Positions 3,331 to 60,547 of a DNA stretch of 64,000 nucleotides are shown here, piece after piece (the first letter of the stretch is position 1; each line of letters starts with the position of its first letter). A program made the translations under genes and the position numbers. Origin of the DNA: Loigolactobacillus coryniformis subsp. coryniformis KCTC 3167 = DSM 20001 (GTDB lineage Bacteria; Bacillota; Bacilli; Lactobacillales; Lactobacillaceae); contig NZ_CP017713.1 of the NCBI RefSeq assembly GCF_002706425.1, forward strand, positions 930,001 to 994,000, written 5' to 3'. The notes under the pieces are model-generated. The model was not told the origin of the DNA. It made no database searches and saw nothing but the letters and a program-made list of their open reading frames with translations.

Positions 3331-3605
3331 AAAAAAGCGCCCCAGAAATACAATTGTATTTCCGGGACGCTACGGCGCGGTACCACCCAAATTCTTACTG
3401 TTATTACTAACAATAACTTAGTCACGTACGGTTATTCACGATACGCTAGCAGGGTAATGGCTGCAGCCAATGGGCGTTACTTAAATTCGACCCATAACTC
3501 AGAGGTGATTTTCATTGATTGATGACTAATTCCCTTTCACCTAACGGAACTCGCTGCTAGTCGAAATCAACTACTCTTCCTCTTCTTAGTAACTCATTTA
3601 TTTTT
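3331..3605 (-). promoter_or_regulatory. T-box leader, apparent Ile (AUC) specifier
   Basis: Read on the minus strand, the T-box core GGGUGGUACCGCG lies at 3388-3376. It is followed by an intrinsic terminator (arms within 3371-3337, then a U6 run to 3331). Stem I shows the AGUA S-turn strand (GAGUAG) facing UGAAAAUCA. The upper helix UUGAUU/AAUCAA and the lower helix AGAGG/CCUCU pair perfectly around the loop. This places the specifier triplet AUC at 3509-3507. By analogy with other T-boxes, uncharged tRNA-Ile would pair there and at the T-box bulge and prevent termination. The specifier was assigned by eye. Confidence 0.88.
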
Positions 3606-19309: not shown

Positions 19310-21216
19310 GTGCGCCCGGCATGGGCGTCAACTAGGTGGTGAAAGTCCACTGCGGGCCGTAGTAGTCGGAACCGCTAGCCAAAGGCAAGGCCTTTATCGT
19401 GAGGTGAAGACTGAAGGAAGCCTGATGAGCAAAGTACTGCACCGATGAACAAGAAGCAGCTATAAGGCCGGAAGTAACTGGATAAGGTGGCCAAACACAC
19501 TGAAGTCCGATACTACCCGAAGTTACGACAGTAAAGCTGACGGTGACATGGTACGAAAGTTGACGTTCTTACCCGGGGAGACCTGTACACACAATCCTGA
19601 TTTTCTTAGGGAATACCCAAATGACAAGGAAATATGAGTTCAAAGCAAGTCAGAAATGGCTGGTTAAGTGTACAGGAGTCAGCCGAGGTCATAGTAGTGG
19701 GTAACCATGAAGGACCAAACAATAATAACTCATATTGCGACTGGAAGTGAAGACGATGCGAAAATCGCAGAAAACAGAACAAGCTGACCGCCAGCGGATG
19801 ATAGGTCTGGAAGACCAAAGACAAACTGGGGCGCGTAGTATCGCCTCCGGTGAAGGAGAAAAGATGAGTGGCACTCAGTTTCAAGCATTAGTTTTGGCCC
19901 GCAACAACCTGAATTTGGCTTATCAACGTGTGGTTAGGAACAAAGGGGCGGCCGGAGTTGACGGTATGACCGTTGATGAATTGAAACCGTACCTGAAAGT
20001 ACATCGCGAAGAATTACTCGCAGAATTGGCCAATGGGACTTATAAACCGGCACCAGTCAAGCAAGTCTCAATTCCAAAGCCCAACGGTGGAACGCGTAAG
20101 CTTGGCATTCCGACCGTGATCGACCGGCTAGTCCAGCAGGCCGTGGCCCAGGTCCTTTCGCCGATATATGAACAGATCTTCGCCAACAATAGTTTTGGTT
20201 TTCGACCCCAACGCAGTGCACATGACGCAGTTCAACAGGTCGTTCAGCTAGATAATGCGGGTTATCACTATGTGGTTGATCTGGATTTGAAGGCCTACTT
20301 CGATACGGTTAATCATGACATGCTTATGAAGTTTCTCAAGCAGCGAATTAGTGACCGCTGGGTACTACGGCTCATTCGCCGTTTTCTGACTAGTGGCACC
20401 ATGAATGGGCAATTGTTTGAACGCAGTGAGAAAGGCACACCGCAAGGCGGGCCGATCTCGCCACTGTTAGCGAATATTTATCTCAACGAATTCGACCAAG
20501 AACTAGCTAGGCGCGGTCATGAATTTGTCCGTTACGCCGATGACTGCAATATCTTTGTTAAAAGTCCACGCGCGGGCCAACGAGTCCTCGCTAGTGTGAC
20601 TCGTTTTCTCGAGCATGAGTTAAAACTCATGCTCAATCAGGAAAAGACACAAGTGGTCGCCACCAACAGAATGAAGTTCTTAGGGTTTACGTTGGGCCAC
20701 ACTAAAGGTAGGGCTTTTCCCTATCCGGTGTGGTCAGCGAAGCAGCGAGTTAAACAAGCATTGAGGCGGCTGACTAAGCGTAATCGTGGTGTATCCGAAG
20801 ACCAAATAATGGCAGAGATTCGTCAAAAGATGCGCGGTTGGTTGCAGTATTACAGCTTGGGTAGAATGAAGCGGTTCATCACGGAATTAGATGCGTGGCT
20901 GCGGTCACGTATTCGCCAGTACATTTGGAAACAATGGAAGAAAGCCAAAACTAGAGAGAACAACTTGAGCGGATTAGGATTTACGAAAGATGAAGCTAAG
21001 CTATCCGCTAACACGCGTAAAGGGTACTGGCGGACAGCGCATAGTAAAACGCTGTGCCGTACCCTAACTAACAAAGAGCTGGAACGTCGTGGACTCATTA
21101 ACTTGAGTCAGACGCTCCAGCAAATTCAGAGTGCTTAAATTATTGAACCGCCGTATACGGAACCGTACGTACGGTGGTGTGAGAGGACGGTAACTTACAA
21201 TTACCTCCTACTCGAT
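19310..21216 (+). mobile_element. Group IIC intron, copy A1
   Basis: The 1907-bp intron starts GTGCGCCCGG. A structured 5' region (19310-19755) comes first, then the maturase gene. The conserved domain V hairpin (GAACCGCCGTATACGG..GGTGTGAGAGGACGG, about 21145-21190) follows. Domain VI ends CTACTCGAT. The 5' exon is a terminator stem and T run. A second copy at 49737-51643 is identical except for at least two bases (19738 C/A, 20709 T/C), so one copy is a recent descendant of the other or of a shared parent. Confidence 0.93.
19756..21138 (+). CDS. ltrA: Group IIC intron reverse transcriptase/maturase (copy A1)
   Basis: This protein of about 460 residues drives intron splicing and retrohoming. 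RT blocks are IPKPNGGTRKLGIPTVIDRLVQQAV (read in parts), FGFRPQRSAHDA, LDLKAYFDTVNH, GTPQGGPISPLLANIYL, the catalytic FVRYADDCNIFV (Asp pair) and LMLNQEKT. Then comes the maturase (X) domain with GWLQYYSLGRMKR and RQYIWKQWKK. No HNH endonuclease domain follows, as is typical of class C. The ATG at 19756 has GGAAG 8 bases upstream. Confidence 0.93.
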   Translation: MRKSQKTEQADRQRMIGLEDQRQTGARSIASGEGEKMSGTQFQALVLARNNLNLAYQRVVRNKGAAGVDGMTVDELKPYLKVHREELLAELANGTYKPAPVKQVSIPKPNGGTRKLGIPTVIDRLVQQAVAQVLSPIYEQIFANNSFGFRPQRSAHDAVQQVVQLDNAGYHYVVDLDLKAYFDTVNHDMLMKFLKQRISDRWVLRLIRRFLTSGTMNGQLFERSEKGTPQGGPISPLLANIYLNEFDQELARRGHEFVRYADDCNIFVKSPRAGQRVLASVTRFLEHELKLMLNQEKTQVVATNRMKFLGFTLGHTKGRAFPYPVWSAKQRVKQALRRLTKRNRGVSEDQIMAEIRQKMRGWLQYYSLGRMKRFITELDAWLRSRIRQYIWKQWKKAKTRENNLSGLGFTKDEAKLSANTRKGYWRTAHSKTLCRTLTNKELERRGLINLSQTLQQIQSA

Positions 21217-22964: not shown

Positions 22965-24859
22965 GTGCGCTCGGCATGGGCGTCAGCTAGACGGTGAAAG
23001 TCCGTTGCGGGCCGTAGTAGTCGGAACCGCTAGCCAAGGGCAAGGGTGTCCATCGCGAGGTGGAATCTGAAGGAAGCCTGATGAGCAAAGTACCGCACCG
23101 ATGAACAAGAAGCAGCTATAAGGCCGAAGATGACTGGATAAGGTGGCTACACACACTAAAGTCCAATACTACTCGAAGTCATGACGGTAAAGCTGACGGT
23201 GACATGTTACGAAAGTTGACGTTCTTATCCGGGGAGGCCTGCTAGTCAAGTTATAGCGCGACGGAATATGGCAAACCCAGCAGTGATGGTGGGCTGAGAT
23301 TAGCAGGAGTCAGCCGAGGTCATAGTAAGTCTATCTTTGGTAGACCGAAGGGCTGAACAATAGTAAATCAACTGAGATTATGGAGGTGACAATAGTGCGA
23401 AAATCGCAGAAAACAGAATTAGCTGACTACCGACAGAGGAATAGGCTGGAAGCCAAAGGTTATGCCGGAGCGCGTAGTACTATTGGCGGTGAAGTAAATC
23501 AGTTGGTTGGTGAAACCAAATTAATGGACGCTATCTTGAAACGTAACAACCTGAATGACGCCTATCTGCGGATTAAGCGAAATAAAGGTGTTGCGGGAAT
23601 TGATGGTATGTCGATTAAGGCGATGTTACCTTACCTAAAGGAACACCGCGAGTCGCTAATTGAAGCAGTTAGAACGGGCCATTATCAGCCTAAGCCAGTC
23701 AAACGGGTACGAATCCCGAAACCGAATGGTGGGCAGCGTAAGCTGGGCATTCCTACGGTTATTGATCGGTTACGGCAACAAGCGGTGGCGCAAGTTTTGA
23801 ATCGAATCTACGAACCAAAGTTTATCGATAATAGTTATGGCTTTCGCCCACAACGCAGTGCGCATCAGGCGCTATTACGTGCCTGTCGGTACTACAATGA
23901 GGGCTACAAAGTAGTCGTGGACTTGGATATGAAACAATACTTTGACACGGTGAATCACGATAAGTTAATGGCAATTCTAGCACGAGATATTCATGAATCA
24001 ATGGTTCTACGGCTCATTCGCCGCTTTCTGACCAGCGGTATCATGGTCAACCAACTGCTCATTGCCAATGAACAAGGTACACCACAAGGTGGCAATTTGT
24101 CGCCGTTGTTAGCGAATATTTACCTAAATGAATTTGACCAACTGCTTAAAGCGCGGGGCCATAAATTTGTGCGTTACGCCGATGACTGTAATATTTATGT
24201 CAAAAGTAAACGTGCGGGTACGCGCGTGTTAGCCAGTTGTACCAAGTACCTAGAGGGCAAACTGAAACTAACCGTCAACCAAGTAAAGAGTATCGTTGGC
24301 AGTCCAACTAAACAGAAGTTTTTAGGTTTCTGTATTTCACCGACTAAGCAGGGAGCGCGGTTGCGCCCCCATCGCCAAGCCAAGTTACGAATCAAGGCTA
24401 AACTAAAGCAAATCACCAAACGTAATCGCGGTCGTAGTCTTGACTTGATTATGCACGAAGTTCGCCAAGTAATGACTGGCTGGCTCAACTATTATGGCAT
24501 TGGTCGCATGAAGGAGTTTATCCATGGGCTGAATCAGTGGCTCAAGCACCGATTGCGCCAATATGCTTGGAAACAGTGGAAGAAGATTGGTACGAAAATT
24601 GTCAATTTGATCAAACTAGGTATTTCCAGACACGATGCCTGGATTTGGGCCAATACCCGTAAGGGCTACTGGGCCATAAGTGGTCACGGTGTCGTCAACT
24701 ATTCGATGAAAAACGAAGTGCTCGCCCGTTGGGGATATCAAGATATCGCCCAACAGTACGAGCACATTCACTCAAACTATTGAACCGCCGTATACGGAAC
24801 CGTACGTACGATGGTGTGAGAGGACGGTAATTGAACTAATCAATTACTTCCTACTCGAT
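22965..24859 (+). mobile_element. Group IIC intron, type B
   Basis: The 1895-bp intron starts GTGCGCTCGG and shares much of the 5' RNA core with copies A1/A2 (GGGCCGTAGTAGTCGGAACC). The encoded protein is clearly different from theirs. Domain V is at about 24788-24830 and the 3' end is CTACTCGAT. It stands between the broken GyrI-like gene and the convergent alcohol dehydrogenase gene. A decayed 3' fragment of the same type occurs at 34325-34803. Confidence 0.92.
23395..24783 (+). CDS. ltrA: Group IIC intron reverse transcriptase/maturase (type B)
   Basis: This protein has about 462 residues. RT motifs are YGFRPQRSAHQALLR, LDMKQYFDTVNHDKL, GTPQGGNLSPLLANIYLNEF, FVRYADDCNIYV (catalytic Asp pair) and LTVNQVKS. 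The maturase domain has GWLNYYGIGRMKEF and RQYAWKQWKK. There is no endonuclease domain. The chosen start is GTG at 23395 with GGAGGTG seven bases upstream; an ATG at 23380 would place the ribosome site inside the gene. The protein differs throughout from the A-type maturase, so the two lineages arrived separately. Confidence 0.92.
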   Translation: MRKSQKTELADYRQRNRLEAKGYAGARSTIGGEVNQLVGETKLMDAILKRNNLNDAYLRIKRNKGVAGIDGMSIKAMLPYLKEHRESLIEAVRTGHYQPKPVKRVRIPKPNGGQRKLGIPTVIDRLRQQAVAQVLNRIYEPKFIDNSYGFRPQRSAHQALLRACRYYNEGYKVVVDLDMKQYFDTVNHDKLMAILARDIHESMVLRLIRRFLTSGIMVNQLLIANEQGTPQGGNLSPLLANIYLNEFDQLLKARGHKFVRYADDCNIYVKSKRAGTRVLASCTKYLEGKLKLTVNQVKSIVGSPTKQKFLGFCISPTKQGARLRPHRQAKLRIKAKLKQITKRNRGRSLDLIMHEVRQVMTGWLNYYGIGRMKEFIHGLNQWLKHRLRQYAWKQWKKIGTKIVNLIKLGISRHDAWIWANTRKGYWAISGHGVVNYSMKNEVLARWGYQDIAQQYEHIHSNY

Positions 24860-27250: not shown

Positions 27251-27318
27251 ATGATATTGCCATCATATCATGAAAGCGGTTAATATGAAATTGCAATTAA
27301 GTCATTATTATTTATTAT
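27251..27318 (+). promoter_or_regulatory. Rhamnose operon control region: inverted repeat, cre-like site, promoter
   Basis: ATGATAT (27251-27257) and ATATCAT (27265-27271) form an inverted repeat and possible regulator site. TGAAAGCGGTTAAT (27271-27284) matches 12 of 14 cre positions. The candidate promoter is TTGCAA (27291-27296), a 16-bp spacer and TATTAT (27313-27318). This fits glucose repression plus AraC-type activation. Confidence 0.6.
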
Positions 27319-27337
27319 TCTTTTAGGAGGTTAAGGC

Positions 27338-40880: not shown

Positions 40881-40894
40881 TTAAATATTGATTA

Positions 40895-41136
40895 GAAAAA
40901 GATGAGTAGATTGTGACGTCGTTTAGTGAGCTTCTGGCAAGTGGGAAGAAGTCGACTTAGCAGTTGAAGATGGTCTTTGGATCGAATCAGTGGTGAGCGT
41001 AAGGTAAGCCACTGACGGAATGCGTTCGTTATTACGCAGAGCTAAGTAAGCTCACTGAGGAAATAATTATTATTTCGTATTTAAGGTGGTACCGCGATTT
41101 CGTCGCCCTTGACATTTAGTCAGGGGCGTTTTTTTA
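40895..41136 (+). promoter_or_regulatory. T-box leader with methionine (AUG) specifier
   Basis: The stem I lower helix AAAGA/UCUUU and the GAGUAG S-turn face UGAAGAUGG, placing the specifier AUG at 40970-40972. The T-box core AAGGUGGUACCGCG is at 41083-41096. The terminator CGCCCUUGAC/GUCAGGGGCG is at 41104-41128 with U7. Uncharged tRNA-Met would allow readthrough into the MetE-like gene, which fits its function. Confidence 0.93.
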
Positions 41137-41167: not shown

Positions 41168-42283
41168 ATGGCAACAGCACCATATCGTTTTGATCAGGTT
41201 GGGAGTTTATTACGGACAGCACCACTTAAGCAGGCTCACGAGCAGTTTAAAGTAGGTGACATTGACGCAGCGGAATTACAAAAAGTTCAGCAAGCAGAGA
41301 TCAAAAAAATTGTCGCTAAACAGGTAGAACTAGGCTTGCATGCAGTTACTGATGGTGAGTTTAGCCGTTCGTGGTGGCACCTTGACTTTTTATGGGGATT
41401 AACCGGCGTCGATAAATATGATTATGAAAAAAGTTACAAGTTCCACGGTAGTAAAACGCGGACGGATAACGTCACCTTGACTGGTAAAGTGGCTTACAAT
41501 CCGGATCATCCGTTTTTTGCCGCATTTAGTTATTTGCAGTCATTAGTTCCTGATGGCGTAGTGGCTAAACAAACGATTCCGTCACCAAGCATGTTGTTCC
41601 GTGACAACCGCAGTGATAACGCGGAAAAATTCTATGCCAATCATACCGACTATTTAGATGATCTGGCTACCGCTTATCATAAAACTTTATTGCGTTTTTA
41701 TTCATTAGGTTGTCAGTACATTCAATTAGATGACACCACCTGGGCCTTTTTGATCGATCGATTAAACGCCACTAAAGATGACCCGGCAGCACATAAGGAA
41801 TATGAACAAATGGCAGAAGATATCGTGTACGTTGTCAATAAATTATTAACCAATTTGCCAACTGATTTAACGGTTACAACGCATATTTGTCGCGGTAATT
41901 TCCGTTCAACCTTCCTGTTTTCTGGCGGTTACGATGTTGTTGCCGATTATTTAGGCGAATTAAACTACGATGGTTTGTTCCTTGAATACGATAACGATCG
42001 TGCCGGTGACTTTGCGCCTTTGGCAAAAATCTGGAATCATGAACCGAAGAAACGGATCGTATTGGGCTTGGTGACTTCTAAATTTCCTGAATTAGAAGAT
42101 CAAGCAACGTTGATCAAACGAATTCATGAAGCGGCACACCACGTACCGTTAGCTAATTTAGCGTTGTCGACGCAATGTGGTTTTGCCTCTACTGAAGAAG
42201 GTAATCAACTGACTGCAGAGCAACAGTGGGCTAAATTAAAGCTAGTTATCACGACCGCAAAACAAGTTTGGCCCGAAGCCTAA
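41168..42283 (+). CDS. MetE C-terminal-like methyltransferase (YxjG/YxjH type)
   Basis: This 371-residue protein corresponds to the catalytic barrel of cobalamin-independent methionine synthase. It begins FDQVGSLLRTAPLKQA. It has VTDGEFSRSWWHLDFLWGL (about 55-73), YIQLDDTTWAFL, the zinc ligands TTHICRGNF (His-x-Cys, about 237-245) and LSTQCGFAS (last Cys). It lacks the N-terminal folate-binding half of MetE, so the methyl donor is uncertain. The Met T-box control supports a methionine role. The ribosome site is GGGGAGG. Confidence 0.9.
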   Translation: MATAPYRFDQVGSLLRTAPLKQAHEQFKVGDIDAAELQKVQQAEIKKIVAKQVELGLHAVTDGEFSRSWWHLDFLWGLTGVDKYDYEKSYKFHGSKTRTDNVTLTGKVAYNPDHPFFAAFSYLQSLVPDGVVAKQTIPSPSMLFRDNRSDNAEKFYANHTDYLDDLATAYHKTLLRFYSLGCQYIQLDDTTWAFLIDRLNATKDDPAAHKEYEQMAEDIVYVVNKLLTNLPTDLTVTTHICRGNFRSTFLFSGGYDVVADYLGELNYDGLFLEYDNDRAGDFAPLAKIWNHEPKKRIVLGLVTSKFPELEDQATLIKRIHEAAHHVPLANLALSTQCGFASTEEGNQLTAEQQWAKLKLVITTAKQVWPEA

Positions 42284-42385: not shown

Positions 42386-43378
42386 TTAACGACGGCGTAA
42401 GTTTTTCTTGTTACCGACCATCCGCTTAATTTTAGCGGCCGTTATCTGGCGGCTATTCATCGTTGAATATTCAGTTTCACGCAATAATCGCCGATAATCA
42501 GCTAAACGCTGGGCACTTAATTCACCGTTGGCGATCGCAGCCTGTACTGCGCAACCAGGTTCTTGTTCGTGCTGGCAATCGTTGAAGCGACATTGCTGCG
42601 CTAAACTAGTAATGTCAGGAAAACTTTGCGCGGTGGCAGTGGTAGTACTGCTGGCGACACCAACACCACGGATTCCTGGTGAATCGATCAACGCCGCACC
42701 GTTAGGCAAATAGAAAAGCTGCCGTGCAGTCGTTGTGTGCCGACCTTTGTCATCGCCACCACGGACTGCTTTGGTACTTTGTAGCTGTTGCGCGGCGAGG
42801 ATATTGAGCAGGGTCGATTTACCAACACCAGAAGAACCAACAAAAACGGCGGTGGTCGTTGGTTGTAGATAGGCATTCAATTGTTCACGTGCTACTAATG
42901 GTGTCGTACTAGTCGTGGTAATGATTGGTACACCAAAAGCAATCGCTTCTAATTCGAGCTGACGTTGGACCAATAATTCAGGTTCTAAATCAGCTTTAGT
43001 CAAGACGATCACTGGCGTTGCCCCACTATCCCAGACTAAGGTCAGGTAACGTTCGACACGGTTAGTACTGAAGTCGGCGTTGAGCGACATTGTAATAAAA
43101 ACCGTCGTCACGTTGGCAGCAATCGCTTGATCTTGTTGGTTACTCGCTCGTGTTAGTAAGGTTTGTCGTGGCAGTAAAGTAGTGATCAAAAATTTATCTT
43201 GATCATAGACTTGACCGCTGACAAAATCACCAATTAGCGGTAACGTATCAGCGAGCTGCATCCGTCCAGCTAAGGTGGCTTGGTGCACACTACGGTCAGC
43301 AAAAATCACTTGATATTGATCGTGACTTTGAAAAATAATTTGGGCAGTATTTAATGAATCGTTGGGAAAATTAAGCAT
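42386..43378 (-). CDS. rsgA: Ribosome small-subunit biogenesis GTPase RsgA
   Basis: This 330-residue circularly permuted GTPase helps late 30S maturation. The N-terminal OB fold (QVIFADRSVHQATLAGRMQL) is followed by G4 VLTKADLEP, G1 GSSGVGKSTLLN (about 182-193), G2 region RHTTTARQLF, G3 DSPGIRG and a zinc knuckle CRFNDCQHEQEPGCAV (about 270-285). The length is usual. The ATG follows ATTGGAGGACTAAAC. The ribosome site and start codon lie inside a foldable leader, so translation is probably regulated. Confidence 0.95.
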   Translation of the reverse strand: MLNFPNDSLNTAQIIFQSHDQYQVIFADRSVHQATLAGRMQLADTLPLIGDFVSGQVYDQDKFLITTLLPRQTLLTRASNQQDQAIAANVTTVFITMSLNADFSTNRVERYLTLVWDSGATPVIVLTKADLEPELLVQRQLELEAIAFGVPIITTTSTTPLVAREQLNAYLQPTTTAVFVGSSGVGKSTLLNILAAQQLQSTKAVRGGDDKGRHTTTARQLFYLPNGAALIDSPGIRGVGVASSTTTATAQSFPDITSLAQQCRFNDCQHEQEPGCAVQAAIANGELSAQRLADYRRLLRETEYSTMNSRQITAAKIKRMVGNKKNLRRR

Positions 43379-43460
43379 GTTTAGTCCTCCAATGTTTTTT
43401 TAGTTCGACGTATTGGAGGCGTCACTACGACTATTTGTGCGCAGTGTCCTCCCTAAACAT
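43376..43460 (-). promoter_or_regulatory. Structured rsgA leader: predicted three-way junction hiding SD and start
   Basis: On the minus-strand RNA, P1 is AUGUUUAG (43460-43453) with CUAAACAU (43384-43377, includes AU of the start codon). P2 is CACUGCG (43446-43440) with CGUAGUG (43429-43423). P3 is CCUCCAAU (43419-43412) with AUUGGAGG (43393-43386, the ribosome site). All base pairs are Watson-Crick except one G-U in P2. The junction strand holds an unpaired GGAGG (43452-43448) that could displace the ribosome site by pairing with CCUCC. It is not a riboswitch class known to the annotator. Confidence 0.7.
43381..43425 (-). CDS. Possible upstream leader peptide of rsgA (14 codons)
   Basis: GTG at 43425 opens a frame reading MTPPIRRTKKTLED and stopping TAA at 43383-43381, two bases before the rsgA ATG. 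Its codons run through P3 and into P1, so translating it would melt the structure that hides the rsgA start. A ribosome site GGGAGGA lies upstream but only close to the GTG if hairpin P2 forms, and the GTG itself is in P2. It may be fortuitous. Confidence 0.3.
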   Translation of the reverse strand: MTPPIRRTKKTLED

Positions 43461-43515
43461 AACTTCTTCTGGCTTTAACATATTGCATTGCTCGCTTTCT
43501 GATTAAGATGGATTT

Positions 43516-43524
43516 AGTATAACA
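43516..43524 (-). promoter_or_regulatory. Extended -10 promoter of rsgA
   Basis: The minus strand has TGT-TATACT with its hexamer at 43521-43516. It gives a leader of about 130 nt. No clear -35 is seen. Confidence 0.55.
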
Positions 43525-43575
43525 AATTTGGGGGCAAATAGCAGGGCTTTGAATGGCTAAAAATTAAACCTATAG

Positions 43576-43620
43576 AAAAAGTGAGCCATCCAAATGAATG
43601 ACTTGGATGGCTCACTTTTT
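43576..43620 (-). terminator. Terminator of the antiporter-lipoprotein operon
   Basis: AAAAAGTGAGCCATCCAA pairs perfectly with TTGGATGGCTCACTTTTT. It abuts the stop codon of the lipoprotein gene. Confidence 0.92.
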
Positions 43621-44186
43621 CATTCGTCAACTTGTTGCCGTTCTAAAATGTTGCCTCGTTTAGCATCGATACGCATACGTACTGTATGGTGCGCGCGACT
43701 ATGAATCAGCAGTTCATAATAGGTGATCTGCCGTTGGCGGGCTAAAGTATAACCAACAATGTGACCATCGTTGATCTCACTAATAGCGATCTGCTTGATC
43801 GTAGTCAATGATTTCAAGCCGTTTAAGTTGAGTGTTGCGCGTTCAGCGTTTTGCTTGGTCAATTTAGTGTGTGTTTTCTTGGTGATGATCGGCTGCATTG
43901 CGTTGACCGCTAAGTGGTAATAGCGCTGATGCTGTCGTGCTTGGACGTGGTACTGATAAAAGCGTCCATGCTTGGTCAAACTAATTTGTAACAACTGGGC
44001 GTGGGGAAGTTCTTTGTGAACTAGCCGCGCGACTTGTTTGCCAGAAACTTTGGCGGTGAAGATCCCCTGACTAGGATCTTGGCGATAAGGTGCTGCCGCT
44101 TTTTTAGCGGTGTTAGGTTGGACGATACCGCAACCGCTGAGTAGCAGTAAAACTAAAAACAGCGGCCATAAACGTTTGAATTTCAC
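43620..44186 (-). CDS. Hypothetical lipoprotein
   Basis: This 188-residue protein has a signal peptide and lipobox LLLLSGC (Cys at about residue 19), then a soluble basic domain with ATLNLNGLKSLTTIKQIAISEINDGHIVGYTL and a PepSY-like ending (MRIDAKRGNILERQQ). It is likely anchored outside the membrane. It lies 26 bases after the antiporter gene and shares its terminator, so it may modulate that transporter. The GTG start has AGGAAGGA upstream. Function is unknown. Confidence 0.75.
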   Translation of the reverse strand: MKFKRLWPLFLVLLLLSGCGIVQPNTAKKAAAPYRQDPSQGIFTAKVSGKQVARLVHKELPHAQLLQISLTKHGRFYQYHVQARQHQRYYHLAVNAMQPIITKKTHTKLTKQNAERATLNLNGLKSLTTIKQIAISEINDGHIVGYTLARQRQITYYELLIHSRAHHTVRMRIDAKRGNILERQQVDE

Positions 44187-49589: not shown

Positions 49590-49603
49590 TTAAATTAATT
49601 GAA

Positions 49604-49735
49604 AGCAGGGGAGCTGTTGTGAACAGCTGAGAGGAAAATAAATTTTCGACCCTTTAAACCTGATTGGTTAAGACCAGCGTAGGGAGCTATTTAGACGGTA
49701 GAAGCACATCCTAGGCAATGGGATGTGCTTTTTTT
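49604..49735 (+). promoter_or_regulatory. TPP riboswitch with intrinsic terminator
   Basis: THI-box landmarks are GGGGAGCUGUU pairing with GAACAGCUG, CUGAGAGG (49627-49634), ACCUGAU (49658-49664) and GCGUAGGGAGC (49677-49687). The expression platform is the terminator AAGCACAUCC/GGAUGUGCUU (49702-49711, 49721-49730) with U7. With thiamine pyrophosphate bound, transcription should stop. Without it, the transcript runs into a group IIC intron and on to thiM. Confidence 0.95.
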
Positions 49736-49736
49736 G

Positions 49737-51643
49737 GTGCGCCCGGCATGGGCGTCAACTAGGTGGTGAAAGTCCACTGCGGGCCGTAGTAGTCGGAACC
49801 GCTAGCCAAAGGCAAGGCCTTTATCGTGAGGTGAAGACTGAAGGAAGCCTGATGAGCAAAGTACTGCACCGATGAACAAGAAGCAGCTATAAGGCCGGAA
49901 GTAACTGGATAAGGTGGCCAAACACACTGAAGTCCGATACTACCCGAAGTTACGACAGTAAAGCTGACGGTGACATGGTACGAAAGTTGACGTTCTTACC
50001 CGGGGAGACCTGTACACACAATCCTGATTTTCTTAGGGAATACCCAAATGACAAGGAAATATGAGTTCAAAGCAAGTCAGAAATGGCTGGTTAAGTGTAC
50101 AGGAGTCAGCCGAGGTCATAGTAGTGGGTAACCATGAAGGACCAAACAATAATAACTCATATTGAGACTGGAAGTGAAGACGATGCGAAAATCGCAGAAA
50201 ACAGAACAAGCTGACCGCCAGCGGATGATAGGTCTGGAAGACCAAAGACAAACTGGGGCGCGTAGTATCGCCTCCGGTGAAGGAGAAAAGATGAGTGGCA
50301 CTCAGTTTCAAGCATTAGTTTTGGCCCGCAACAACCTGAATTTGGCTTATCAACGTGTGGTTAGGAACAAAGGGGCGGCCGGAGTTGACGGTATGACCGT
50401 TGATGAATTGAAACCGTACCTGAAAGTACATCGCGAAGAATTACTCGCAGAATTGGCCAATGGGACTTATAAACCGGCACCAGTCAAGCAAGTCTCAATT
50501 CCAAAGCCCAACGGTGGAACGCGTAAGCTTGGCATTCCGACCGTGATCGACCGGCTAGTCCAGCAGGCCGTGGCCCAGGTCCTTTCGCCGATATATGAAC
50601 AGATCTTCGCCAACAATAGTTTTGGTTTTCGACCCCAACGCAGTGCACATGACGCAGTTCAACAGGTCGTTCAGCTAGATAATGCGGGTTATCACTATGT
50701 GGTTGATCTGGATTTGAAGGCCTACTTCGATACGGTTAATCATGACATGCTTATGAAGTTTCTCAAGCAGCGAATTAGTGACCGCTGGGTACTACGGCTC
50801 ATTCGCCGTTTTCTGACTAGTGGCACCATGAATGGGCAATTGTTTGAACGCAGTGAGAAAGGCACACCGCAAGGCGGGCCGATCTCGCCACTGTTAGCGA
50901 ATATTTATCTCAACGAATTCGACCAAGAACTAGCTAGGCGCGGTCATGAATTTGTCCGTTACGCCGATGACTGCAATATCTTTGTTAAAAGTCCACGCGC
51001 GGGCCAACGAGTCCTCGCTAGTGTGACTCGTTTTCTCGAGCATGAGTTAAAACTCATGCTCAATCAGGAAAAGACACAAGTGGTCGCCACCAACAGAATG
51101 AAGTTCTTAGGGTTTACGTTGGGCCACACTAAAGGCAGGGCTTTTCCCTATCCGGTGTGGTCAGCGAAGCAGCGAGTTAAACAAGCATTGAGGCGGCTGA
51201 CTAAGCGTAATCGTGGTGTATCCGAAGACCAAATAATGGCAGAGATTCGTCAAAAGATGCGCGGTTGGTTGCAGTATTACAGCTTGGGTAGAATGAAGCG
51301 GTTCATCACGGAATTAGATGCGTGGCTGCGGTCACGTATTCGCCAGTACATTTGGAAACAATGGAAGAAAGCCAAAACTAGAGAGAACAACTTGAGCGGA
51401 TTAGGATTTACGAAAGATGAAGCTAAGCTATCCGCTAACACGCGTAAAGGGTACTGGCGGACAGCGCATAGTAAAACGCTGTGCCGTACCCTAACTAACA
51501 AAGAGCTGGAACGTCGTGGACTCATTAACTTGAGTCAGACGCTCCAGCAAATTCAGAGTGCTTAAATTATTGAACCGCCGTATACGGAACCGTACGTACG
51601 GTGGTGTGAGAGGACGGTAACTTACAATTACCTCCTACTCGAT
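49737..51643 (+). mobile_element. Group IIC intron, copy A2, inside the thiamine operon leader
   Basis: This 1907-bp intron is collinear with copy A1 at an exact offset of 30427 bp, with at least two substitutions (50165 A versus C, 51136 C versus T). It begins GTGCG two bases after the terminator T run and ends CTACTCGAT just before the thiM ribosome site. Splicing would join the riboswitch terminator end to TTGGGCTTTCAAG and thiM. Confidence 0.94.
50183..51565 (+). CDS. ltrA: Group IIC intron reverse transcriptase/maturase (copy A2)
   Basis: This protein is identical to the A1 maturase over the RT and maturase domains as far as can be read; the 51136 base change is silent at protein level (KGRAF retained). 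The catalytic YADD, GTPQGG and maturase GWLQYYSLGRMKR motifs are all intact. The ATG at 50183 follows GGAAG. Expression presumably depends on readthrough of the TPP riboswitch terminator. Confidence 0.93.
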   Translation: MRKSQKTEQADRQRMIGLEDQRQTGARSIASGEGEKMSGTQFQALVLARNNLNLAYQRVVRNKGAAGVDGMTVDELKPYLKVHREELLAELANGTYKPAPVKQVSIPKPNGGTRKLGIPTVIDRLVQQAVAQVLSPIYEQIFANNSFGFRPQRSAHDAVQQVVQLDNAGYHYVVDLDLKAYFDTVNHDMLMKFLKQRISDRWVLRLIRRFLTSGTMNGQLFERSEKGTPQGGPISPLLANIYLNEFDQELARRGHEFVRYADDCNIFVKSPRAGQRVLASVTRFLEHELKLMLNQEKTQVVATNRMKFLGFTLGHTKGRAFPYPVWSAKQRVKQALRRLTKRNRGVSEDQIMAEIRQKMRGWLQYYSLGRMKRFITELDAWLRSRIRQYIWKQWKKAKTRENNLSGLGFTKDEAKLSANTRKGYWRTAHSKTLCRTLTNKELERRGLINLSQTLQQIQSA

Positions 51644-58659: not shown

Positions 58660-60216
58660 TTGGCAACGACGAACATGCAAGATTTTGATAAAATTATCGT
58701 GCTCGATTTCGGTAGTCAGTACAACCAATTAATCACCCGGCGGATTCGTGAATTCGGGATCTATTCCGAATTAATGTCGCATAAAATAACTGCGGCGGAG
58801 ATCAAGACACTGAATCCAAAAGGCATTATCTTTTCTGGTGGACCCAATAGTGTTTATGATGAAGGGGCCTTCCAAGTTGATCCAGAAATCTACCAATTGG
58901 GTATTCCAATCTTAGGTATCTGTTATGGTATGCAATTAATGGCTCAGGACCTTCCTGGTGGTGTGGTCGAAAATGCTAACAATAGTGAATATGGTCGCGC
59001 CGATATTCATGTGACTGATCCAGATGCCGTTATGTTCAAGGATTTGCCAACAGATCAATACGTTTGGATGAGCCACGGCGACTTAGTGACTAAGGTACCT
59101 GATGGTTTTGTGCAGACAGCAACTAGCAAGAACTGCCCAATCGCAGCAATGGCTGATGATAAGCGTAAGTTCTACGGTTTACAGTTCCATACTGAAGTGC
59201 AAAACACAGAATTTGGTTCTGAAATTTTACGTCACTTTGCCTTTGATGTAGTAGGTGCGCGCGATAATTGGTCAATGGATGATTTTATCGACTTGCAGAT
59301 TGAAAAAATTCGCAAACAAGTCGGTGACCGTAAAGTCTTATTAGGCTTATCTGGTGGGGTTGATAGCTCCGTTGTCGGCGTATTATTGCACAAAGCAATC
59401 GGCGACCAATTGACCAGCATTTTTGTTGATCATGGCTTGTTGCGTAAAGGTGAAGCCAAACAAGTGATGGACAGTTTAGCCGGCAAATTCGGTTTAAACA
59501 TCATCAAGGTTGACGCCCAAAAACGCTTCTTGGATAAATTAACTGGCGTTTCTGATCCAGAAAAGAAACGTAAGATCATCGGTAATGAATTTATCCAAGT
59601 CTTCAATGATGAAGCCACTAAGTTAAAAGGCATCGACTTCTTAGCTCAAGGCACGTTGTATACTGATGTCATCGAAAGTGGTACTGATACGGCCCAAACA
59701 ATCAAGTCACATCATAACGTTGGTGGCTTGCCCGAAGACATGCATTTCCAATTGATCGAACCATTGCGGACTTTATTTAAAGATGAAGCCCGTGAATTAG
59801 GTGAAAAATTAGGTATGCCTGAAGATTTAGTTTGGCGTCAACCATTCCCTGGCCCTGGCTTAGGGATTCGTGTGATCGGTGAGATTACTGAAGATAAGTT
59901 AGAAATCGTGCGCGATAGTGATTTGATTCTCCGCGAAGAAATCAAAAATGCTGGCTTAGACCGCGATATTTGGCAATACTTTACTGTCTTGCCAGGTATC
60001 CGCAGCGTTGGCGTCATGGGTGATGGCCGGACCTATGACTATACAGTTGGTATCCGCGCCGTTAACTCGATCGACGGGATGACCGCAGACTTTGCTCGCA
60101 TTCCATGGGATGTGTTACAGAAAATCTCTGTGCGGATCGTTAACGAGGTCGATCACGTTAACCGTATCGTGTATGATATTACCTCCAAGCCGCCGGCGAC
60201 TGTAGAATGGGAATAA
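58660..60216 (+). CDS. guaA: GMP synthase (glutamine-hydrolysing)
   Basis: This 518-residue enzyme makes GMP from XMP, ATP and glutamine. The glutamine amidotransferase domain has [10 protein letters not shown], the nucleophile [12 protein letters not shown] (Cys at about 87) and [11 protein letters not shown]. The PP-loop is [17 protein letters not shown] (about 229-245). The C-terminal dimerisation domain has [15 protein letters not shown] and ends PPATVEWE. The start is TTG 58660, six bases after GAGGTG; GTG 58651 is within the ribosome site. An IS3 element follows downstream. Confidence 0.95.
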
Positions 60217-60283
60217 AAGGTACATGTAAATTGAACCCAGAATGTTGATTTAACGGCATTTTCGGAAGATACAAAGGATACGA

Positions 60284-60364
60284 TTGGCGGGGTAATTGTT
60301 AGGTTCCCCGCCAAAATCCCCGCCAAGTTTTGGCCGAATGAGGGCTGAGCTGGCGGGGATTTTT
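60284..60364 (+). terminator. Two hairpins with interchangeable arms after guaA
   Basis: Arm 1 GGCGGGG (60286-60292), arm 2 CCCCGCC (60306-60312), arm 3 CCCCGCC (60318-60324) and arm 4 GGCGGGG (60352-60358) are present. Pair 3-4 (10 bp, ATCCCCGCCA/TGGCGGGGAT) is followed by T5 and is a good terminator for guaA. Pair 1-2 forms a 9-bp hairpin. Arms 1-3 or 2-4 could also pair. The rest of 60217-60484 holds no gene. Confidence 0.7.
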
Positions 60365-60547
60365 CGTAAATTATAAAGCTATAATTCGTGGTAAAATTAG
60401 TGAAACTGATTGATGGCGGTGACGATTGGGATGTCCTCTGAAAGAAAAAGTGTACTTGAAATGACGTGGATGTAAGCTGATTCCTGAGACAACTTTTAAG
60501 AGAGGGTATAATGAATAAATCATCTCTCAAAAGGAAGGAATTTTTAC

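Follow-up and report, generated by a model that had tools for sequence, protein, structure and literature searches.

The gene for a second RsgA paralogue of Loigolactobacillus coryniformis, here called rsgA2, is preceded by a leader that, judging from modelled RNA folds, probably operates as an ErmC-like, ribosome-operated translational attenuator that is switched on when a ribosome stalls in a short leader open reading frame (ORF). Computation shows three stems, a leader ORF, the conservation of both, and an effect of the position of the ribosome on the exposure of the rsgA2 ribosome site. The gene lies in the window, by which we mean the whole 64,000-nt stretch of contig NZ_CP017713.1 that was analysed; positions are counted from its first letter. 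From upstream to downstream, the relevant features are as follows.

43603-43584, minus strand: terminator-like hairpin downstream of the preceding gene, from a pattern scan.
43521-43516, minus strand: extended -10 box TGTTATACT (TATACT) of a presumed promoter, kept in 4/4 loci.
43481-43431, minus strand: leader ORF MLKPEEVMFREDTAHK, followed by a stop, with a weak ribosome site, GAAAGCGAG; present in 4/4 Loigolactobacillus rsgA2 loci.
43469-43461, minus strand: leader codons 5-7, E-E-V, which by their position relative to GGAGG stand where other leaders have E-I-V.
43460-43453, minus strand: 5′ strand of P1, AUGUUUAG; similarly placed helices occur in relatives.
43452-43448, minus strand: upstream (spare) GGAGG, a competitor for CCUCC, with an equivalent element in relatives.
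43446-43440, minus strand: 5′ strand of P2, CACUGCG, with two compensatory double changes among four genomes.
43429-43423, minus strand: 3′ strand of P2, CGUAGUG; the leader-ORF stop UAG (43433-43431) lies inside the P2 loop.
43419-43412, minus strand: 5′ strand of P3, CCUCCAAU, the CCUCC of which is common to both exclusive hairpins.
43393-43386, minus strand: 3′ strand of P3, AUUGGAGG, containing the rsgA2 ribosome site GGAGG (43390-43386).
43384-43377, minus strand: 3′ strand of P1, CUAAACAU, overlapping the rsgA2 start codon (43378-43376).
42386..43378, minus strand: rsgA2, the second RsgA paralogue, a 330-aa RsgA GTPase (Pfam, TIGR00157).

The rsgA2 product matches Pfam RsgA_GTPase with an E of 2.4e-48 and TIGR00157 with 157 bits (cut-off 100), and the same genome encodes another RsgA that is 31% identical to it. 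To our knowledge, no role has been established for the second RsgA of some bacteria. The gene was found in 4 of the 8 Loigolactobacillus genomes searched (E 1e-60) and, with the RsgA2 of L009 as the query, in 6 of 397 Lactobacillaceae genomes at E 1e-100, while a plasmid search with the RsgA2 protein returned 136 records, all below 60% identity.

A preliminary description had fitted the stems P1, P2, and P3 into 85 nt, with P3 over the rsgA ribosome site and P1 over part of its AUG, and had proposed that CCUCC can be taken either by that ribosome site or by the spare GGAGG, giving a switch with two states. Indeed, all three stems lie where they had been placed on the minus (rsgA) strand, the coordinates of P3 and P1 agree with the proposed masking, and the computed folds with their exclusive pairings support the switch. 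The 85-nt leader folds at -25.6 kcal/mol (z -4.52), which none of 200 shuffles equalled, and the opposite strand of the same stretch has a z of -2.12 (7/200 shuffles as good). When 181 nt of context are included, z is no better than -0.85 and 38/200 shuffles fold as well; thus, thermodynamics alone is insufficient for the case. The minimum fold in the window consists of P1, P2, GGAGG:CCUCC, and a weak extra stem (-25.6, or -22.4 without the weak stem), against -25.5 for the three-way junction, and the pure junction was therefore rejected as the only state, the two being about equal in the window. An ErmC-type leader should have two pairings that exclude each other, one of them masking the main ribosome site, and such pairings are found both in the window and in relatives.

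The earlier statement that the fold belongs to no known riboswitch class was borne out, as no Rfam family matched at the leader at gathering score, all 14 matches of a permissive scan of 43300-43640 fell far under that score, and none of 20 related loci had an Rfam match at the leader. A riboswitch or other known RNA family was rejected on these grounds, and so was a mobile repeat, a leader-derived pattern being present once in the genome. Elsewhere in the window, Rfam matched group II introns at 19393-21216, 23049-24859, and 49820-51643, the first and third with identical scores and the third starting about 120 nt past a TPP riboswitch match (49597-49702). It also matched T-box leaders at 40884-41113, upstream of a B12-independent methionine synthase-like gene (41168-42283), and at 3360-3596, as well as the Listeria sRNA family rli38 at 60202-60365 (56.4 bits; gathering score 49).

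The leader ORF (43481-43431), which the preliminary description had missed, traverses P1, the spare GGAGG, and the 5′ strand of P2, and the spare GGAGG is coding within it (AGG GAG GAC, R-E-D). As in an ErmC-type leader, the ORF has its own ribosome site, weak in the window and stronger in most of the relatives read. Upstream, TTTGTTATACT, which holds the extended -10 box, is invariant in all four Loigolactobacillus rsgA2 loci; the box at 43521-43516 was not reported by a consensus promoter scan of the window. Provided that this box is genuine, the transcript begins upstream of the entire motif. The pattern scan found two terminator-like sites in the window, with 1.2 expected by chance.

The four Loigolactobacillus leader peptides (MLKPEEVMFREDTAHK, MLKPEEVMFREDAVRA, MLKPEEVMFREDTVRA, and MLTMPAEVMFREDAVRA) are all terminated by TAG, and their ORFs have 16 or 17 codons, a difference of one whole codon only. 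As for the conservation and covariation of the stems, on which the preliminary description had made its reading depend, P1-P3 are kept in the four genomes (98.9% of cells paired), and double changes occur only in P2, with P1, P3, and GGAGG:CCUCC showing no variation within the genus. P2 has two compensatory double changes and 96.4% of cells paired, a modest covariation given that 31/500 shuffles reach two double-change pairs and 22/500 reach the covariation score. The minimum folds of L004 and L005 are the three-way junction with nine pairs each in P1 and P3 (-29.8 and -31.4). In L003 (-30.5), the minimum is likewise a junction, in which P1 has nine pairs, P3 is displaced by one, and GAG:CUC forms a helix of 3 bp; P1 and P3 of the window each lack the ninth pair. 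L031 (Loigolactobacillus binensis) and L005 lie on the same contig stretch.

Beyond the genus, 28 rsgA2 loci were retrieved at E 1e-80 from 301 Lactobacillaceae genomes, and a leader ORF lies upstream of the gene in 27 of them (L024 was left out). Thirteen have a leader of the window type or a variant of it, and the other 14 have a different type, a 4-5-codon ORF (e.g. MSVSR) that precedes the match by 226-288 nt, T-runs being closer to the gene. This short-ORF type (MSVSR, MSAVC, or MAVID, each with a stop and then T-runs) was seen in L011, L012, L014, L017, L019-L023, and L025-L029, where rsgA2 seems to start mostly with TTG. The rsgA2 of L034 (Lapidilactobacillus), which is outside the 28-locus set, has no evident leader of the window kind. 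In L010 (G027), rsgA2 carries one in-frame TAG, yet a leader of the window type is retained.

A wider comparison covered 80 RsgA loci from named records, with script-picked ORFs of at least 150 codons from the same loci as controls. Leaders like MYSKQKLEIVTNGEVCAQ and MFNKHIAEIVANGEGCAK lie upstream of many of these RsgA genes, and their G-E-V is encoded by GGG GAG GTN, which means that the upstream GGAGG belongs to the leader coding sequence; several Lactobacillaceae leaders have the stop TAG at the position of this GGG. The common anatomy comprises a leader ORF (often with E-I-V), the upstream GGAGG, CCUCC, and the rsgA2 ribosome site, resulting in exclusive hairpins. In tests designed after the leaders had been seen, a compact version of this anatomy was found at 23/80 RsgA loci versus 1/191 control ORFs (0.12 expected by shuffling), and a broader one at 28/80 versus 6/191 (1.8 by shuffling), two of these 28 (L092 and L105) being doubtful because of long spacings; the anatomy is thus absent from 57/80 loci by the compact and 52/80 by the broader test. 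Both tests missed L031, and the compact test matched 2 of 31 further loci (L008, in another frame, and L010) and missed all four Loigolactobacillus leaders. It found no match in the 300 nt upstream of the canonical rsgA of the window's genome, a result to be read together with its failure on the window's own leader. A first version of the test (16/80 RsgA loci, 9/172 controls, 1.15 by shuffling) was replaced owing to a poor choice of ribosome sites. By eye, some Bacillus-type loci have a leader ORF with a terminator-like hairpin instead: the rsgA2 leaders of the Bacillus relatives L060, L095, L097, L104, L110, and perhaps L092 resemble transcription attenuators, in which an upstream stretch like CACAGCCC stands against GGGCUGUG in the terminator-like hairpin.

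Similar leaders also precede genes other than rsgA2. The covariance model R1, built from 11 rsgA2 leaders (its 12 pairs are formed in 92.2% of cells, and double changes occur in 4 of them, a number reached by 14/500 shuffles), matched 16 times in 15 of the 398 Bacillota genomes searched: nine before rsgA2, two before GNAT acetyltransferase genes, three before genes with an HRNHCP motif, one leader copy, and one chance match. The leader copy (L126) is a second copy without an rsgA match, and the chance match (L125, E 0.0096) was dropped as no leader ORF was seen. Among 398 Bacilli, R1 found four matches in three genomes, two before rsgA2 and two before GNAT genes, with one genome having both, and an additional search of 10 genomes produced one further rsgA2 leader. 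Altogether, the leaders before GNAT genes are L116, L119, L130, and L131, and those before RNHCP-like genes are L122-L124; Pfam confirms GNAT for L116 and L130 and RNHCP for L034, the remaining names being given by resemblance. As a membership test for the divergent window leader, R1 failed, since it gave 17.3 bits (E 0.55), less than another match in the window (27285-27330, 20.0 bits), and at E 0.01 it had no match in the window's own genome. The window leader is tied to the E-I-V family through anatomy and register, not through score.

The only control match of the compact test is the leader MLTTIPIVTVVAGEVCPD, followed by a stop, before the RNHCP gene of L034, so the control match is itself such a leader. 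This gene lies near rsgA2 in Lapidilactobacillus: at L034:3900-5169 (Lapidilactobacillus achengensis), rsgA2 is followed by a CD3324-family gene, with a possible leader ORF MTKTYFESESCHA (and stop) upstream, and then by the RNHCP gene with its E-I-V-like leader. A search for the RNHCP family yielded 6 of 251 Lactobacillaceae genomes, four with stand-alone genes and two with RsgA-RNHCP fusions, and none in the window's own genome. All four stand-alone genes have a similar leader by eye, three of them distinct (MHKNYTSASVR, MFNNLASAIVR, and that of L034 twice); the strict test picks one of the four (L139), and the fusions have a different leader ORF. In these fusions (L142 and L143, Lactobacillaceae), RsgA with a C-terminal RNHCP domain occupies a single open frame of 454 and 458 codons, respectively, and the short upstream ORF reads MPIAVK and a stop. 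On the function of RNHCP proteins, we found nothing in the parts of the open-access literature available.

E-I-V or its equivalent was placed in 54 of 60 leaders, with the I-equivalent at codon 9 in 33/54, a sample biased by the fact that many leaders were found via their similarity to others. In Loigolactobacillus, the I-equivalent is codon 6 or 7, and the triplet in the window reads E-E-V. As 39 of the 40 Ile codons are AUU, the stretch is constrained as RNA too, and selection at the peptide level is not proven. Attenuation by isoleucine starvation is unlikely, the I-equivalent being Ser, Leu, Val, Glu, or Asp in 14/54 leaders. The E-I-V codons tend to pair with a stretch adjoining the main ribosome site or start codon, for example GCAUUGUG:CACAAUGC in L007, L009, and L133, GAUUGUAAC:GUUACAAUU in L079, and AGAUUGUAGU:ACUACAAUUU in L115; outside Lactobacillaceae, the partner in most helices precedes the ribosome site instead of lying at the start codon. 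The mean pairing of this P1-type helix in its own leader exceeded that of swapped leaders in 300/300 swaps, and a helix score of at least 6 was reached by 25/54 leaders (swapped mean 12.2, maximum 19), with the tested stretch moved by one codon in the four Loigolactobacillus leaders to cover P1. The P1 of the preliminary description may therefore be the counterpart of the E-I-V helix.

A translating ribosome covers the mRNA from about -13 to +15 around the P site, and this footprint was assumed, not fitted, when we computed the exposure of the main ribosome site in 51 of the 60 leaders (L016, L035, L044, L045, L056, L094, L100, L106, and L124 were left out). They comprised 4 leaders from Loigolactobacillus, 8 from Lactobacillaceae, 7 before GNAT/RNHCP genes, and 32 from other Bacillota. 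In the Lactobacillaceae group, exposure rises from 0.04 when the leader is unoccupied to a peak of 0.38 with the I-equivalent in the A site and drops to 0.10 at the next codon. The GNAT/RNHCP leaders behave similarly (0.19 unoccupied, a peak of 0.55 at the I-equivalent, then 0.31 and, one codon further, 0.10), and in Loigolactobacillus the peak of 0.36 comes one codon before the I-equivalent (0.14 unoccupied, 0.22 at the I-equivalent, 0.01 at the next codon). Leaders of other Bacillota have values of 0.51 unoccupied, 0.54 at the I-equivalent, 0.12 at the next codon, and about 0.5-0.6 at every earlier position. Thus, in the model, the site closes in all four groups once the ribosome passes the E-I-V region, and in three of the four its opening requires a ribosome near E-I-V. 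For the window alone, the computed exposure of the ribosome site is 0.24 unoccupied, 0.42 with the ribosome at P|E, 0.41 at E|E, and 0.00 at E|V, and that of the start codon, 0.03 at first, goes no higher than 0.13. Leading edges of +14 to +17 give similar curves, shifted by at most one codon, and +12 moves the Loigolactobacillus peak by two.

Such exposure profiles are consistent with the following course of events. At rest, the RNA would mostly mask the ribosome site and start codon, P1 + P2 + P3 being balanced with P1 + P2 + GGAGG:CCUCC. A ribosome running through the leader ORF would cover the upstream GGAGG, leaving CCUCC to pair with the rsgA2 ribosome site and turning rsgA2 off. If a ribosome were held as codons 5-6 (E-E here, E-I-V elsewhere) enter the A site, P1 would be opened and the upstream GGAGG would be free for CCUCC; this pairing, together with the stalled ribosome, would expose the ribosome site and, less strongly, the start codon, so that RsgA2 would be made. 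The leader ORF is presumably translated, and ribosomes would stall in it, most plausibly owing to an antibiotic that inhibits translation or to comparable translation stress, a situation in which a second, inducible RsgA would help. One of the two RsgA paralogues of Streptomyces coelicolor is reported to follow a WblC- and tetracycline-dependent pattern, and wblC has an upstream ORF (uORF), according to the available part of the source (PMC7157823); this parallel favours antibiotic stress.

A different account, unlikely but deserving some weight, holds that the leader ORF serves as a gauge of initiation frequency: when it is translated often, the rsgA2 site would close, and with scarce or defective 30S subunits GGAGG:CCUCC would stay and RsgA2 would be made, a homeostatic feedback for a 30S assembly factor that needs no specific stall. 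In the 32 leaders of other Bacillota, where the site is as open without a ribosome as with one at the I-equivalent (0.51 versus 0.54), the absence of leader translation would suffice, which makes such a sensor possible there, and the constraint on the Ile codon as RNA fits it as well. So does the role of RsgA as a late 30S factor, as given in the available part of PMC6912228. However, the unoccupied site is mostly closed in Loigolactobacillus, Lactobacillaceae, and the GNAT/RNHCP group, where it opens most with a ribosome near E-I-V, and the recurrence of E-I-V or a similar triplet before unrelated genes, at codon 9 in most leaders of the biased sample, speaks against such a sensor.

We consider it improbable that the masking is passive, with hairpins that do no more than keep basal expression low or respond to temperature and a leader ORF that is incidental. 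The weak ribosome site of the ORF in the window would suit this view, but relatives show the leader ORF, the extra GGAGG, and the exclusive pairing more often than controls do, and the P1-type helix is better paired in its own leaders than in swapped ones. Least credible is the riboswitch-like feedback of the preliminary description, in which the leader would directly mimic or sense the anti-SD, free 30S subunits, GTP, or ppGpp. In its favour, the window has two near-equal folds, the target gene acts on 30S, and GGAGG could conceivably bind free 30S. Against it, this GGAGG lies inside a conserved leader ORF, the leader is matched by no Rfam family, leaders of comparable layout are found before GNAT and RNHCP genes, and a ribosome that translates or stalls accounts best for the switch.

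One leader design appears to be reused for several genes. As a possibility that we rate as somewhat doubtful, we tentatively suggest that Bacillota have a scattered set of ribosome-defence genes, each coupled to a leader and all united by an undescribed arrest-type peptide (typically M-x6-E-I-V). The set would comprise an inducible second RsgA, RNHCP (in some Lactobacillaceae as a fusion with RsgA), and GNAT, and stalling at the same codons would turn on each of them. The proposal is testable: the second RsgA would be a stress-induced ribosome factor, perhaps involved in intrinsic tolerance to translation inhibitors, and RNHCP proteins would belong to the same response.

ErmC-type attenuators combine a leader peptide with exclusive hairpins, and the main gene's ribosome site becomes accessible when a ribosome stalls on the leader. 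The rsgA2 leader shares the leader peptide and the exclusive hairpins, and according to the computed geometry a stall would free its main ribosome site as well; it differs in its main gene, which encodes a paralogue of a 30S assembly GTPase, in its leader peptide, and in P1 also hiding the start codon. We found no description of an rsgA leader ORF in the parts of the open-access literature available. Among the systems described there, the uORF toiL of the Escherichia coli topAI-yjhQ operon is one on which stalled ribosomes, with several antibiotic classes, open the ribosome site of the main gene (PMC12121999), as is proposed here for rsgA2, in another phylum and with another gene and structure. 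The uORFC-6-1 motif, found mainly in Bacillales, combines a uORF and an RNA structure before hflX, a gene for a ribosome-associated GTPase, as is the case with rsgA2, and antibiotic stalling has been proposed for it (PMC8632094). Its peptide has a conserved Arg-Leu-Arg, which we looked for in the window leader MLKPEEVMFREDTAHK and found absent, and its influence is described, in the available part of that source, as being on transcription (PMC8632094). The WblC/WhiB7 regulon relies on a transcription factor acting in trans, as opposed to a leader on each gene here (PMC7157823, as far as its available part goes). Control by a uORF is also reported before ARE5 ABCF genes (PMC12421871); as the accessible parts of these reports indicate, uORF control before hflX, topAI, and ARE5 ABCF genes is of an already known kind.
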